Shown here: positions 20,787-28,281 of the stretch, piece after piece | How the letters are laid out: the number at the start of each line of letters is the position of its first letter | Numbering within the stretch: position 1 is the stretch's first letter | Assembly: GCA_900471815.1 (NCBI GenBank) | Contig: UICE01000003.1 | Span: 395,558 to 459,557 of the forward strand | DNA: 64,000 nucleotides | Direction: 5' to 3' | Origin: Hyphomicrobiales bacterium | GTDB taxonomy: Bacteria > Pseudomonadota > Alphaproteobacteria > Rhizobiales > Rhizobiaceae | Notes under the pieces: model-generated | Database searches by the model: none | Seen by the model: only the letters and a program-made list of their open reading frames with translations | What the model was told of the DNA's origin: nothing | Position numbers and translations under genes: made by a program

Positions 20787-22622
20787 TTATCCTTCGTGGC
20801 CGAATGGTTCTGTCGCATTGACGAGCCATTCGCGCGCTTCACCGCTGGTGTGAGGCAGTAATTTTTCCCGGACCTTGGCATGGTAGGCATCAAGCCATAC
20901 CAGTTCTTCGCGAACAAGCAGGCTTGTATCGATGAGCCGCTTGTCGATGGGGCACAGGGTAATTGTCTCAAACCCCATCATCGGCAAATCGCCACCTTCA
21001 GGCACTTGTGGCTCCGTAACAATCAGCAGATTTTCTGTGCGTATGCCATAGCCACCCGGCTTGTAATATCCAGGTTCATTGGAAAGAATCATGCCCGGCA
21101 AGAGTTCCTGGGTGCCCCGCTTCGAAATATTTTGCGGGCCTTCGTGCACGGAGAGGAAAGAGCCGACACCGTGCCCTGTGCCATGGCCGTAATCATAGCC
21201 CTGTTTCCACAAAGCAATGCGGGCAAGAACGTCAATGTCCATGCCGCGCGTTCCTTTCGGAAAACGTGCGGTTGAAATGGCAATCATGCCCTTCAAAACC
21301 AGTGTGAACTTCTTTTTCATATCCGCTGTTGGCGTGCCAACCGGCAATGTCCGGGTAATGTCGGTTGTACCATCGCGATACTGGCCGCCACTATCAATCA
21401 AATAGAGCTCGCCATCCTGCAGCTTGCGGTTTGACTCCGTGTTGACGCGATAATGCGCAAATGCGCCATTTGGGCCAGCACCGGAAATGCTGTCGAATGA
21501 CAGATTTTCGAGCGGCATCTGGAAGCCTTGAGCAATCTCGTGGCGCGTTTCTTCGAGTTTGGTCGCAGCGTCGATTTCGTCAATCGTGCCCGGTGCCTGA
21601 TGGTCAATCCATGACAGGAAGGAGACCATGGCCACGCCGTCACGCTCATGCGACTTGCGTGCGCCTTCCAGCTCGGTTTTGTTTTTAATGGCACGCGGCA
21701 GGCGCGCGGGGTCGAGACCTTCGACGATTTTGCCGCCAGCTTTTTCGATGATCAGCCGCAGCTTTTCCGCTGCCAGCGCCGGATCGAGCATGACAGTGTG
21801 ACCCTGAGCAGCAAAATCGGCAACGTCATTATCGAGCGTTGACGGCGCGCGCAATGTGGCGAGCTGGGTCAAATAGGCCTCTGTTTCCATTGGCAGCTTG
21901 CGCTTGTCGATGAAAAGCAAGGGCTCGCCATTTGCGGGGATGAGTGCAAAGGCCAAGGGCAAAGGCGTATTGCTCACATCATTGCCGCGAATGTTGAACG
22001 TCCACGCAATCGAGGATGGGTCTGTCAAAATGGTTGCATCCGCTTTGGCTTTGCCGACAGCATCCGCCAATTCATGCAGTTTCACTTTGGCAAGCTTGCC
22101 GGCATATTTTTCCGGCTGGATCGTCACTGCTTCAAGCGGTGGGGCAGGCTGATCGTCCCAGATAAGATCGACAAGATTATCCTTTACGGCGACGAGGCTG
22201 CCGCCATTTTTCTCCAGCGCTTCGCGCAAGGCTTTTGTTTCGCTGATTGTGTGCAGCCATGGATCAAAGCCGATGGTCAGCGGACGTTCAATACTGCGCA
22301 GCCAGACCGCAGGCGGCGTATCGATAAGGCTTTCAATCGTAAAGACGGAAGGGTCGGTTTGATCTGCCGCCTGTAAAGTGTAACGCCCATCGACGAAAAG
22401 ATGCGCCTTGTTCTTCAACACCAGAACAACGCCCGCAGAACCGGTAAAGCCCGTCAGCCAAGCCAGACGTTGCGCGCGGGCAGGAACATATTCACCCTGA
22501 TGCTCGTCTGCACGGGGCACGAGAAAACCATCGAGCTTCAAGCCTTCGAGTTCAGCTCGTAATTTTGCAACACGCGGTGCGCCGGTAGCTGGATTGCTGG
22601 ACACCTCAAACGACTGGAACAT
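20787..22622 (-). CDS. pepP: M24 family aminopeptidase P (Xaa-Pro aminopeptidase)
   Basis: Cytoplasmic metallopeptidase that removes N-terminal residues before proline. 611 residues, the long form with two creatinase-like N-terminal domains (about 1-160 and 160-310) and a C-terminal pita-bread domain. Metal ligands are visible in LIDSGGQYRDGTTDITRT (two Asp), GTGHGVGSFLSVHEGP (His), NEPGYY (Glu) and GIRTENL (Glu). The start ATG at 22622 follows AGAGG. The nuclease/partner pair lies just upstream on the same strand with about 100 bases between. Confidence 0.95.
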   Translation of the reverse strand: MFQSFEVSSNPATGAPRVAKLRAELEGLKLDGFLVPRADEHQGEYVPARAQRLAWLTGFTGSAGVVLVLKNKAHLFVDGRYTLQAADQTDPSVFTIESLIDTPPAVWLRSIERPLTIGFDPWLHTISETKALREALEKNGGSLVAVKDNLVDLIWDDQPAPPLEAVTIQPEKYAGKLAKVKLHELADAVGKAKADATILTDPSSIAWTFNIRGNDVSNTPLPLAFALIPANGEPLLFIDKRKLPMETEAYLTQLATLRAPSTLDNDVADFAAQGHTVMLDPALAAEKLRLIIEKAGGKIVEGLDPARLPRAIKNKTELEGARKSHERDGVAMVSFLSWIDHQAPGTIDEIDAATKLEETRHEIAQGFQMPLENLSFDSISGAGPNGAFAHYRVNTESNRKLQDGELYLIDSGGQYRDGTTDITRTLPVGTPTADMKKKFTLVLKGMIAISTARFPKGTRGMDIDVLARIALWKQGYDYGHGTGHGVGSFLSVHEGPQNISKRGTQELLPGMILSNEPGYYKPGGYGIRTENLLIVTEPQVPEGGDLPMMGFETITLCPIDKRLIDTSLLVREELVWLDAYHAKVREKLLPHTSGEAREWLVNATEPFGHEG

Positions 22623-22724: not shown

Positions 22725-23357
22725 TTAGTCTTTGAGTTCAAGCGGAAAGGGTGTGGGCTCCCAGTATTTTTCGAGCTTGAGATTCTTGATCATGAAAGCT
22801 TGTTTTTCTTGTAGATTCATCAACAAGGCTGCCCGATCACGAGATATCAGCGCATTGTAGTAGTCTGGTTTCCTACCCAGCTGACCACTTGTAATGCCTT
22901 CTTCAACAAAAGAAATTGCAAGATCAAGATCACCGTTCGCTAAGGCGGCTATTGCGCGCAGACTGGCATTTCGAAGAAAATACCAGGAGTTTTCAGGATC
23001 ATTGCTACGGTGGGTTACATAGTCATCTATAGAGTTTATTCGGCGCAGTTCTGGTAAGGCCTCCTCAATGATATTGCGCATGAGCTCGATAGATTTCAGG
23101 TCGCGGATGTCCCATAAACGTTGATGTATGTAGAGAAGACGTCCTCCGCTTAAAGGCCAATGATTCAACCCGAGAAATGATAGTGTAACCGCTGTGTCTA
23201 CCACAAAAATATTGGGGTTGGATCGCCGATCTATACAGATAAAGCGGAGAACATTGCGTACCGGTGTCAAAACCAGCATGCGTCCAAGGAGCGCCAGATC
23301 GGAATGGCGCTCCAGCAAGGGCATTATGGCCTGTTTCACATGTGCGGCTGTTGTCAA
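22725..23357 (-). CDS. partner protein of the nuclease-like gene, possible immunity protein
   Basis: 210-residue soluble protein with no family I recognise; helical in appearance, with a C-terminal part resembling tetratricopeptide-like helices (ALANGDLDLAISFVEEG). It starts at a TTG (23357) that overlaps the upstream gene's TGA by four bases, so it is translated by coupling. Composition is AT-rich compared with pepP and prmA. A small protein tied to a nuclease-like gene fits an immunity or antidote role, but this is inference; it might also be a regulator or chaperone. Confidence 0.7.
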   Translation of the reverse strand: MTTAAHVKQAIMPLLERHSDLALLGRMLVLTPVRNVLRFICIDRRSNPNIFVVDTAVTLSFLGLNHWPLSGGRLLYIHQRLWDIRDLKSIELMRNIIEEALPELRRINSIDDYVTHRSNDPENSWYFLRNASLRAIAALANGDLDLAISFVEEGITSGQLGRKPDYYNALISRDRAALLMNLQEKQAFMIKNLKLEKYWEPTPFPLELKD

Positions 23358-24406
23358 TAATCTAGCTCAGGTTGGATTGGGATAATGAAGATGCGGTATG
23401 GTCCTGAAAAATTCTTTTGCACAGATTGGCCGATCTCTACCATTCTAGCGGGTGTGAGACCTTTTTTGCCCGCTTTGAGATCGTAAACGCAAACAACACC
23501 ATTTTTAACCTTCTCGAGGATATCGAGGCGTAGTGATGCTGGAAGACCATATCTTACACCATTTTCTCCGTAATTATTTTCCGACAGTTCCTCAGCATAC
23601 TTTAAGAATGATCGTTCGGGTATTAGACGTCCGTTGTAGTTGCGGACAATATTATCCTTGAGAATCGTATGCATTCTTGTGCCGAATTCCGCTGCGGAAC
23701 GATAGTCTGATATCTTTCCTGCTGCCCGAGCTGCCAGATTCACTTGTGTCTGAACTGCCTTATATAGTGGGCAGGCTCCCTCAACCTGTTCACGCAACAT
23801 AGGTACCACGACTTTTTCCAGTTTGGGCCCTTCGCCTGGCTTAAACTCGTGGGGTGTAAAGTGTAGTGCGGGAACAATACTCTTTGGTGCATTTTGGAGC
23901 AACCAATTGTAGCGGTCCAAAGCCTCCTGGGTTGTACCCCGGAATGATGAATTCAATGGGTCTGTGTCAGGTAACTGGCGCAATATTTCGGCAGCAATTG
24001 CAGGACCGCCGCTTCTACCTGTCTGACGTCCCGATCTAAAGTCCGGCATAGGCTTGATCGGCTGCTGCGTATCTGCCCTTGGCCTAACTCCTGAAAAGTC
24101 AACTTTCATTGGTTTTACATTCTGATCATGCGGCAGTGATGATCCACCATTGCCATTTGTCCATTGCCCTCCGTCTGAATGGCCTGCAGGCACGCGCGGC
24201 TGATTGGCATTGAATTTCCGTTCAGCTGCTTCGAGAAAGCGTAACCGTGACTTGCGAGAATCGAGCCCCAACTCAAGCTGGCGAATTTGCATGCGGGGAA
24301 AGGTATTAAGTGGAGCCAGCCGCATATGTTTAAGATTGGCGCTATCTGCTGCGACTTGGTTTCTGAGGTGGTGGATTTCAGTCAGATAGGGAAATAATGC
24401 GCTCAT
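23354..24406 (-). CDS. putative PD-(D/E)XK nuclease-domain protein (polymorphic-toxin-like)
   Basis: 350-residue protein. Residues 68-83 hold NQPRVPAGHSDGGQWT, a motif I recall from many rhizobial accessory proteins, placed before a low-complexity linker (to about 140). The C-terminal part has EFGTRMHTILKD (about residue 245), LRLDIL (Asp near 295) and VYDLKAG (Asp 309, Lys 311), a spacing that fits the D...DxK core of PD-(D/E)XK nucleases. No signal peptide or membrane helix. The ATG at 24406 has GAGGA nine bases upstream. AT-rich compared with neighbours, suggesting transfer. Overlaps its partner gene. Function and target are inferred. Confidence 0.65.
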   Translation of the reverse strand: MSALFPYLTEIHHLRNQVAADSANLKHMRLAPLNTFPRMQIRQLELGLDSRKSRLRFLEAAERKFNANQPRVPAGHSDGGQWTNGNGGSSLPHDQNVKPMKVDFSGVRPRADTQQPIKPMPDFRSGRQTGRSGGPAIAAEILRQLPDTDPLNSSFRGTTQEALDRYNWLLQNAPKSIVPALHFTPHEFKPGEGPKLEKVVVPMLREQVEGACPLYKAVQTQVNLAARAAGKISDYRSAAEFGTRMHTILKDNIVRNYNGRLIPERSFLKYAEELSENNYGENGVRYGLPASLRLDILEKVKNGVVCVYDLKAGKKGLTPARMVEIGQSVQKNFSGPYRIFIIPIQPELDY

Positions 24407-24488: not shown

Positions 24489-25364
24489 TTAGTAAGTTGC
24501 GCGCGCTTTCAAATGCAGCGTTACCCAGCCCTCGCGGCGGAGGGTCTTCACGTGGAAAAGCCCCTGCACACGATAGGCGGCGAGTACTTTTTCGCGTTGG
24601 GTTTCCAGAATACCCGAAAGGATCAGCGAGCCGCCCCAGCCAAGATGTTTGCGCATTTCGGGCGCGAGCATCATCAATGGCCGTGCCAGAATATTGGCGA
24701 CAATCAGGTCGAAGGGCGCCGAACCGCGCATCGCCGGATGATGGAAGCCGGTAGCTGTTTCGGTGCGAACCCGCGAAGCAACACCGTTCTTCACCACGTT
24801 TTCCCGTGCAACAGCAACAGCGACAGGATCGATATCTGTCGCCAGAACGGGAATAGGCGCGAGCTTTGCAATGCCGATGGCCAGAACCGCACTTCCTGTT
24901 CCCAGATCAAGCGCATTTCGTGGGTGTTCGCGGCGGATCACTTCGCCGATCATATCAAGACAGCCGGATGTCGTGCCGTGGTGGCCGGTGCCAAAGGCCT
25001 GCCCGGCATCGATTTCAATGCCGAGATCATTGATACGGCGCTTGTGGCGGTCATGTGAGCCATGCACAAAGAATCGCCCGGCGCGCACCGGCTTCAAGCC
25101 TTCCAGCGAATGCGCAACCCAATCAATATCAGGTACCTGTTCGCGCTCGACGGGCCAATTCTTGCCAACGGTGTCGATCATGCGAGTTTCAATTTCTTCC
25201 GGTTCAAACGTATAGACCGAAACTTCATATATCTCGCGATCCTCATCGATCTCCGCTGAGGAGATTGGCAGGCCATCATCTTCGAAAGCATTTTCCAGCA
25301 AGATAAACAGCCGCTCGGCTTCGGCCTTGCCGGCAGTAATGAAAAGGCGGGTCTGGGTCGTCAT
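24489..25364 (-). CDS. prmA: ribosomal protein L11 methyltransferase
   Basis: SAM-dependent methyltransferase that modifies ribosomal protein L11. 291 residues from the ATG at 25364 (a longer start at 25388 is possible). Seen: [12 protein letters not shown] near residue 140, the SAM motif [13 protein letters not shown] near residue 165, and the acidic ATDIDP following, then the motif [12 protein letters not shown]. The family call is firm. The gene is divergent from the acetyltransferase gene and upstream of the nuclease-like pair. Confidence 0.95.
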
Positions 25365-25478
25365 GGGCGTTTGCTTTCGGAAAGGCATGTGTCGGCTACC
25401 CCTATCAGGATTTTCGCCATAGGCAACGGTGCATCATTTGTGCAAAAGAATTGCACTGACCTGATCCGGGAAACCGCA

Positions 25479-27508: not shown

Positions 27509-27599
27509 AATCGTAGCAATTGCTTGTTTGGGCATTTCGAAAAGGTACAGTGGGATAATTGAAGTCTATTGCATTTTATAGCTATTGGTAATAATTGTA

Positions 27600-27851
27600 A
27601 TGAGAAATATTGCATATAGCAAAGAATCGTCGCAGTTGCTGCGACGAATCCCGAAGAACGAAGCTGAAAAAATTATGAGGAAAATCCGTGCTTATGCGGA
27701 TGATCCTGCAAGTTTGAAAAATAATGTGAAAACCTTGCAGGGCTTGGGGCTAAAGCGCCTTCGGGTTGGTGAGTGGCGCGTTATTTTTGATGAGGATGGA
27801 AACGTGCTTACAATCGTTAAAATCGGCCCGCGGAGTAGTGTCTATGATTGA
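27600..27851 (+). CDS. RelE/HigB-type toxin
   Basis: 83-residue basic protein of the RelE/ParE superfamily, probably an mRNA-cutting ribosome-dependent toxin. The family pattern is visible: RRIPKNEAEKIMRKI, LKRLRVGEWRVIFDEDGNVLTIVKIGPRSSVYD, with Arg and Tyr near the end. The ATG at 27600 is chosen over an upstream start at 27585. It overlaps the downstream antitoxin gene by 8 bases or ends seven bases before its alternative start, so the two form one unit with toxin first, as in higBA. Confidence 0.87.
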   Translation: MRNIAYSKESSQLLRRIPKNEAEKIMRKIRAYADDPASLKNNVKTLQGLGLKRLRVGEWRVIFDEDGNVLTIVKIGPRSSVYD

Positions 27852-28281
27852 GGCAAAAATGGGTGAATTGAAGGTAAGCTATATAATGCCTCCGGGCAGT
27901 GATCAGCGTTATGCGATGATTTCAGAAGACGATTTTCTCGCTTTGAAAGCAATTGTCACCCGTTTGGATGATGTCTCGCTTGGCAAAGATAGTCATTCCA
28001 TAAAGGAACTTGTGGAAGCATTGAACATTCGAGATGCTATCGCAAGGGGCGATGAAGAGACATTTCCCGAAGATGTGGTGTTCGCTCTCGTGCAAGGTGA
28101 GAACCCGGTAAGAGTTTTCCGGAAGTGGCGCGGCATGACAGCTGTGGCGCTGTCGCAGGCAGCAGGAATTTCGCAACCATATCTTTCCGAAATTGAAAAT
28201 GGTTCAAAAGATGGATCATTATCAGTGATGAAACGTATTGCGACGATATTAAATGTGACACTTGATGATTTGGCAGGATAA
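27844..28281 (+). CDS. XRE-family antitoxin
   Basis: 145-residue protein with a C-terminal Cro/CI-type helix-turn-helix (ALSQAAGISQPYLSEIENG, about residues 105-123) and an N-terminal part of unknown fold. Start either ATG 27844 (overlapping the toxin stop) or ATG 27859, which has GAGG five bases before. Antitoxins of this type bind the toxin and repress their own operon. It ends five bases from the convergent uvrD stop. Confidence 0.85.
   Translation: MIEAKMGELKVSYIMPPGSDQRYAMISEDDFLALKAIVTRLDDVSLGKDSHSIKELVEALNIRDAIARGDEETFPEDVVFALVQGENPVRVFRKWRGMTAVALSQAAGISQPYLSEIENGSKDGSLSVMKRIATILNVTLDDLAG

Follow-up and report, generated by a model that had tools for sequence, protein, structure and literature searches.

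We analysed two overlapping genes, encoding the proteins P0001 and P0002, in a 64,000-nucleotide stretch of the genome of a plant-associated Phyllobacterium (contig UICE01000003.1, positions 395,558 to 459,557; hereafter the window). Both genes lie on the minus strand: that of P0001 (23354..24406, ATG start) encodes a predicted nuclease toxin of 350 residues, and that of P0002 (22725..23357, TTG start) a predicted cognate immunity protein of 210 residues. The minus-strand letters at 23354-23357 are TTGA, so the stop of P0001 overlaps the TTG start of P0002 and the genes share 4 nucleotides; the positions and lengths of these open reading frames (ORFs), their coupling and the numbering of D295, D309 and K311 in P0001 agree with a preliminary description of this DNA. 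The pair is bounded upstream by prmA (24489..25388, minus strand; present in 20 of 20 genus genomes) and downstream by pepP (20787..22622, minus strand). As the preliminary description had it, the pair is AT-rich, with a G+C content of 47.7% vs 54.7% in pepP, 56.3% in prmA and 52.9% in the window (rank 5 of 312 same-size windows). A candidate promoter of its own, also proposed there, was not recovered: a consensus scan returned 3 promoter-like sites vs 3.1 expected by chance, none of them upstream of the P0001 gene on its own strand.

P0001 divides into four parts. A predicted N-terminal helical hairpin (residues 5-64, with helices 5-30 and 38-64; 24215..24394, minus strand) is modelled with a block pLDDT (predicted local distance difference test) of 92-96 for residues 11-60 and is further supported by an alignment of fronts (A3) and by the fusions described below. 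It is followed by the signature motif QPRVPAGHSDGGQWT (residues 69-83; 24158..24202, minus strand), a linker predicted to be disordered (residues 87-150; 23957..24148, minus strand; pLDDT <50) and a C-terminal PD-(D/E)XK-type domain (residues 155-350; 23357..23944, minus strand).

The C-terminal domain carries the expected active-site residues. A first alignment (A1, 25 sequences) had been chosen from relatives bearing a DxKTG stretch, and conservation was therefore recounted among 46 relatives obtained by single-sequence search with no motif selection: among the sequences covering each position, E264 was conserved in 42 of 42, D295 in 41 of 41, D309 in 39 of 43 and K311 in 41 of 43. H246 is also conserved. 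In an AlphaFold2 model of P0001 (mean pLDDT 73, block pLDDT 77-93 in the core elements, predicted template modelling score 0.54), the elements follow the order of an alpha-beta-beta-beta-alpha-beta core, with E264 on strand 1, D295 on strand 2, D309 at the end of strand 3 and K311 just after it. The Pfam matches of P0001 are no better than E 0.2, and the nearest family reached through its relatives is PDDEXK_1, by weak matches. Conservation, modelled core order and these matches together identify the P0001 C-terminus as a predicted PD-(D/E)XK-type nuclease, in line with the earlier call, which had been made from motif spacing. No usable match to P0001 or P0002 was found in Pfam, NCBIfam, PHROGs or PADLOC, and a contig scan with P0001 alone as first query returned no match. 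A sequence match in the PDB to Tako8 was rejected, as it consisted only of the repeated short DxKTG stretch, and structural-search hits to residues 1-94 were discarded as helical hairpins or bundles that are uninformative on function; the structural list is without other nuclease chains, an absence that carries no evidential weight.

The downstream gene is closely associated with the nuclease. The P0002 family is present in 19 of 20 genus genomes (own included). We collected 65 distinct nuclease-domain ORFs, 47 bacterial (including fragments and overlapping loci, so not all independent) and 18 from virus contigs. At least 39 of the 47 bacterial ORFs are followed on their own strand, at a distance of no more than 350 bp, by a P0002-type partner gene, usually with a 4-nucleotide overlap; none of the 18 from virus contigs is. 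The ORF calling was mechanical and drops some genes; two loci (L071 and L094) were counted as lacking a partner, yet each has a partner-type match directly downstream. Across 79 loci in named genomes, found by the pattern CxYDxKTG and excluded from the catalytic-residue counts, the nuclease cluster was present in 78, the partner cluster in 67 and any other family in at most 15. This survey of neighbours used mechanical ORFs up to 10 kb per side; no secretion family or other recurring family stood out, secretion being sought only as any recurrent neighbour. Tandem copies of the partner gene occur. Compared with Phyllobacterium YR531, the ratio of nonsynonymous to synonymous substitution rates (dN/dS) was ~0.11 for the partner, 0.15 and 0.08 for two parts of the toxin, 0.017 for pepP and 0.033 for prmA, values that are rough because synonymous sites are near saturation; on these estimates both genes of the pair look maintained and faster-evolving than their pepP and prmA neighbours. 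An Imm49 profile matched 1 of 32 partner sequences (E 0.003) and not P0002 itself, whose top Pfam hit is YcaO_C (E 0.015, below the family cut-off). From its position and association the partner is best read as an immunity gene that would protect the producer, and the pair is quite likely a nuclease toxin with its cognate immunity. The effector/immunity or toxin/antidote interpretation of the preliminary description is supported.

The position of the pair is a variable site. In 20 genus genomes, the prmA-pepP junction holds a gene of the family in 6, only a partner remnant in 1, nothing in 12 (with 172-611 bp between the prmA and pepP matches) and a contig end in 1, which bears out the earlier statement that the pair splits pepP from prmA. 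The occupied junctions differ in content: in one, a similar front belongs to a different toxin type of 433 aa, whose partner opens, by eye, with a Sec-signal-like stretch; another carries the nuclease and two partner genes followed by a toxin of the 433-aa type; and in a third the nuclease precedes three partner-type ORFs and a lone partner of the secreted type. Two different C-termini thus stand behind similar fronts at the same junction of relatives (L080, L102), the pattern of exchange expected of polymorphic toxins. The second toxin type (L080 5558-7656, L102 8033-10175, L103 3305-3976) has no Pfam match, and its secreted-like partner would fit a periplasmic target.

The front of P0001 reaches well beyond this junction. 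Its first 90 residues, ending in the signature motif, are similar to the fronts of many proteins that differ in their C-termini. The motif has the consensus QPRVPAGxxDGGQWT, in which R, G, GG and W are invariant among 23 diverse sequences; relatives carry other helical stretches, prohead-protease sequence or a portal protein ahead of it, and the C-terminal cargos behind it include a CdiA-type RNase and a colicin-type Cytotoxic domain. The front profile matched 56 of 397 genomes of the order, in 31 of 142 genera, and 19 of 385 genomes of a class sample (own included in each). A common N-terminal part, exchangeable C-terminal domains and an immunity gene directly downstream are the features by which polymorphic toxins are recognised; judged by its sequences, the common front with different C-termini has a polymorphic-toxin architecture.

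In sister Phyllobacterium genomes, front-bearing proteins are encoded in arrays within a cluster of terminase, portal, S78 protease, capsid, NlpC/P60 and GTA_TIM/Rcc01698_C genes, which by its gene content is identified as a predicted RcGTA-like gene transfer agent (GTA). In three genomes a single ORF comprises a full S78 prohead protease followed by the motif and a variable C-terminus (E 1.5e-31, 1e-31 and 2e-32). In a neighbouring array ORF the end of the protease (E 2e-10) runs in one frame into the motif and a CdiA-type RNase A (E 1.4e-13); in another genome a colicin-type Cytotoxic domain (E 7.8e-19) stands behind the motif. The repeated pieces of the prohead protease gene in these arrays point to tandem duplication. 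A close GTA capsid gene is present in 12 genus genomes: in 6 of them module sequence separates the protease and capsid genes (in one case just a short protease-motif ORF), and in the other 6 the protease and capsid matches are ~105-145 bp apart with nothing between. P0001-type genes adjoin gp15 in three Phyllobacterium GTA loci (L307, L309 and L311), two of them incomplete. The GTA arrays L093, L095, L098, L099 and L101 hold further cargo C-termini without Pfam match, and one array C-terminus appears by eye to be nucleotidyltransferase-like, of the GSAVTGRN...SDxDLAL type.

The association with head genes recurs in other lineages. GTA-type head genes were found in 12 of 38 other-family regions (36 genomes; a chosen part, mostly the best, of 88 front-profile matches) vs ~0.25 expected, a chance figure that assumes 28 kb per 4.2 Mb genome and independent regions; the tail value of 1.8e-17 is nominal because several of the genomes share a genus and profile A3 has rows from GTA-embedded genes. 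Among other genera of the family, head genes were present in 2 of 18 regions (16 genomes; part of the front-search matches) vs 0.12 expected. A strict motif ORF was scored in 10 of the 12 head-gene regions, in all cases on the same strand as the head genes; eight lie inside the head block, and two lie 432 and 530 bp outside it. The motif is fused to a portal in two of those regions, and one fusion reads as Phage_portal (E 2.1e-87) followed by a CdiA-type RNase A (E 6.9e-13). In a Phreatobacter GTA, the nuclease type of P0001 itself lies between the protease and capsid genes, as a full motif-nuclease ORF (no P0002-type partner detected), a nuclease piece with a P0002-type partner at -4, and a short copy.

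Virus contigs were sampled from IMG/VR as the best 80 of 121 confirmed stretches, which form 72 loci, and 34 of these loci have terminase, portal, protease or capsid matches to GTA markers. Of 86 distinct motif ORFs, 29 are fused to portal and 5 to protease sequence. Six loci (L228-L233) match the Phyllobacterium GTA toxin arrays so closely that they probably represent GTA clusters listed as viruses. Distant forms of the P0001-type nuclease also occur in portal-fused virus-contig proteins (L254, 3.9e-7; L276, 1.1e-6; L299, 1.2e-5). The idea that the motif is exclusive to GTAs was dropped because virus contigs have it behind portal proteins as well and because most pairs of the nuclease type are orphans. 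Single-sequence tblastn searches, in which distant forms could escape, gave no match for P0001 against plasmids or for a 90-aa GTA-type front against phages and plasmids.

Altogether, we consider that the window pair is probably an orphan member of a polymorphic-toxin/immunity family linked to phage-type heads, and we are modestly inclined to assign the family's front part a role in head association. The PD-(D/E)XK nuclease C-terminus would act on nucleic acid in a target cell, and the 210-aa protein, made from the same message through translational coupling, would neutralise the toxin within producing cells and their kin. The head-association part would consist of the N-terminal hairpin and the QPRVPAGxxDGGQWT motif. 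In relatives, the motif and cargo follow prohead-protease or portal sequence in frame, so the cargo would be enclosed in the particle together with DNA and would reach recipients through that particle; we would guess that the prohead protease also processes it. More tentatively, and with slightly more doubt than conviction, we propose that the GTAs of many Alphaproteobacteria may be armed, the motif module, joined to prohead-protease sequence, the portal or a small hairpin, loading exchangeable toxins beside host DNA, and that the window pair would be a stranded cartridge of such a system.

Two observations weigh against delivery by the window strain itself. The GTA locus of the window genome (L189; contig C9, 345000-364999) is flanked as in relatives, by the LysE/penicillin-binding-protein side and the response-regulator side, and holds terL and portal ORFs followed by a C-terminal piece of gp15 (131-aa ORF): everything between the portal and the last part of gp15 has been lost, and a complete head/tail cluster is absent from this locus. 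Moreover, 74 of the 79 named loci of this nuclease subtype have no GTA gene nearby. The internal deletion makes delivery from this strain by the GTA route unlikely and, together with the isolation of most named loci, marks the window pair as an orphan. Given the deletion, the strain probably either retains the pair for immunity or as an addiction-like unit, or uses it with another particle; the immunity gene may be useful against the same toxin coming from others. Outside this locus the window genome has one capsid match, to a distant protein that shares 26% identity with the GTA capsid (L148 14848-15786; C12, ~766.6-767.8 kb) and is perhaps of a prophage. Elsewhere in the window, at 27585-28281, a RelE/HigB-like 88-aa ORF overlaps a helix-turn-helix ORF (both by eye), an ordinary toxin-antitoxin-like pair; ORFs resembling these occur close to prmA in sister genomes (L102, L080).

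The orphan status of most pairs could also mean that the toxin leaves the cell by another export route, the GTA and portal contexts being captured cargo and the motif a generic linker. Such a route would accommodate the scattered pairs (the 74 of 79 named loci, and only 2 of 18 other-genera regions with head genes), the lack of an intact GTA in the window genome and the presence, at the same junction in relatives, of a toxin type whose partner starts with the Sec-signal-like stretch seen by eye. We nevertheless regard it as rather unlikely: no secretion family or other family recurs beside the nuclease pairs within 10 kb per side, head genes occur near the module genes far above chance and on the same strand in the ten scored regions, and the module is fused in frame to two different head proteins. 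These fusions also bear on an action within the producing cell itself, as a toxin-antitoxin, addiction or abortive phage-defence unit, which would explain two coupled genes at a variable junction in an orphan location, both apparently maintained vs YR531 (on the rough dN/dS values of 0.11 for the partner and of 0.15 and 0.08 for the toxin). Features of this family that are not usual in type II toxin-antitoxins are a toxin-first order, a long multidomain toxin whose front is shared while its C-termini are exchangeable, tandem immunity copies and head-protein fusions. Neither protein was matched by PADLOC models, and we judge such a role improbable.

The nuclease might instead serve the particle, in DNA trimming or in the exclusion of competing DNA, with the partner as a regulator and not an immunity protein. 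The protease-capsid location in the Phreatobacter GTA would suit this role, as would the motif arrangement of P0001, which we take to be RecB/Cas4-like. The same slots, however, hold unrelated toxins (the CdiA-type RNase A and the colicin-type cytotoxic domain) and are empty in 6 of the 12 Phyllobacterium GTAs with a close capsid gene, and we therefore consider service to the particle very improbable. The head-tied toxin/immunity unit remains our preferred reading of the pair.

GTAs are usually seen as domesticated particles that move DNA only. If the head-delivery proposal is true, a GTA particle would carry genes to immune kin and at the same time act as a weapon against non-kin; killing would restrict GTA exchange to kin, which bears on why costly, lytic GTAs persist, and the motif would provide a sequence tag for listing head-borne toxins outside the MuF family. 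The new element would then be a likely delivery class, the heads of GTAs and related phages. Among the titles and abstracts searched, a set outside which preprints and most subscription papers fall, no description of toxins in GTA head clusters was found, and a literature search with the motif letters gave no paper; PMC12429752 reportedly treats prophage-carried genes in Sinorhizobium. Toxins in GTA heads are not treated in the available portions of PMC13236601, PMC5675462 and PMC5512222, and the term 'gene transfer agent' is absent from the searched text of PMC5576092 and from the first 300,000 characters of PMC3482391.

Several known systems share parts of this design. The Phyllobacterium clusters with relatives of the pair hold the same terminase, portal, S78 protease, capsid, NlpC/P60 and GTA_TIM/Rcc01698_C genes as RcGTA-like agents, and differ from them in having toxin and immunity genes within the head block. 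The phage T4 protein Alt is a head-enclosed enzyme that is injected with the DNA and acts on host RNA polymerase early in infection (PMC5512222); enclosure in the head would be alike, whereas the cargo of the present family is variable and has putative immunity genes as partners. The Tox-REase families are restriction-endonuclease-fold domains of polymorphic toxins (PMC3482391); P0001 would likewise be a toxin of that fold, but its Pfam matches stop at E 0.2, and the nearest family by way of its relatives is PDDEXK_1. The MuF polymorphic toxins of temperate phages carry C-terminal toxins, often nucleases, behind a head-associated front, have portal and terminase neighbours and are proposed to be delivered by capsids (PMC5576092, PMC3482391). 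The present family resembles them in having a C-terminal toxin domain behind a putatively head-associated front and in the location of its relatives' genes in head clusters. It differs in its front, which consists of prohead-protease sequence, a portal or a helical hairpin followed by QPRVPAGxxDGGQWT; no MuF domain (PF04233, PF06152 or relatives) appears among the Pfam matches of P0001 up to E 1 or in the 10 families listed for the 25 A1 members. It differs also in its distribution, in RcGTA-like clusters of Alphaproteobacteria and scattered orphan pairs, and the window pair sits between pepP and prmA and not next to portal or terminase genes. The MuF family is the closest precedent, in which the same logic would be served by a different anchor.
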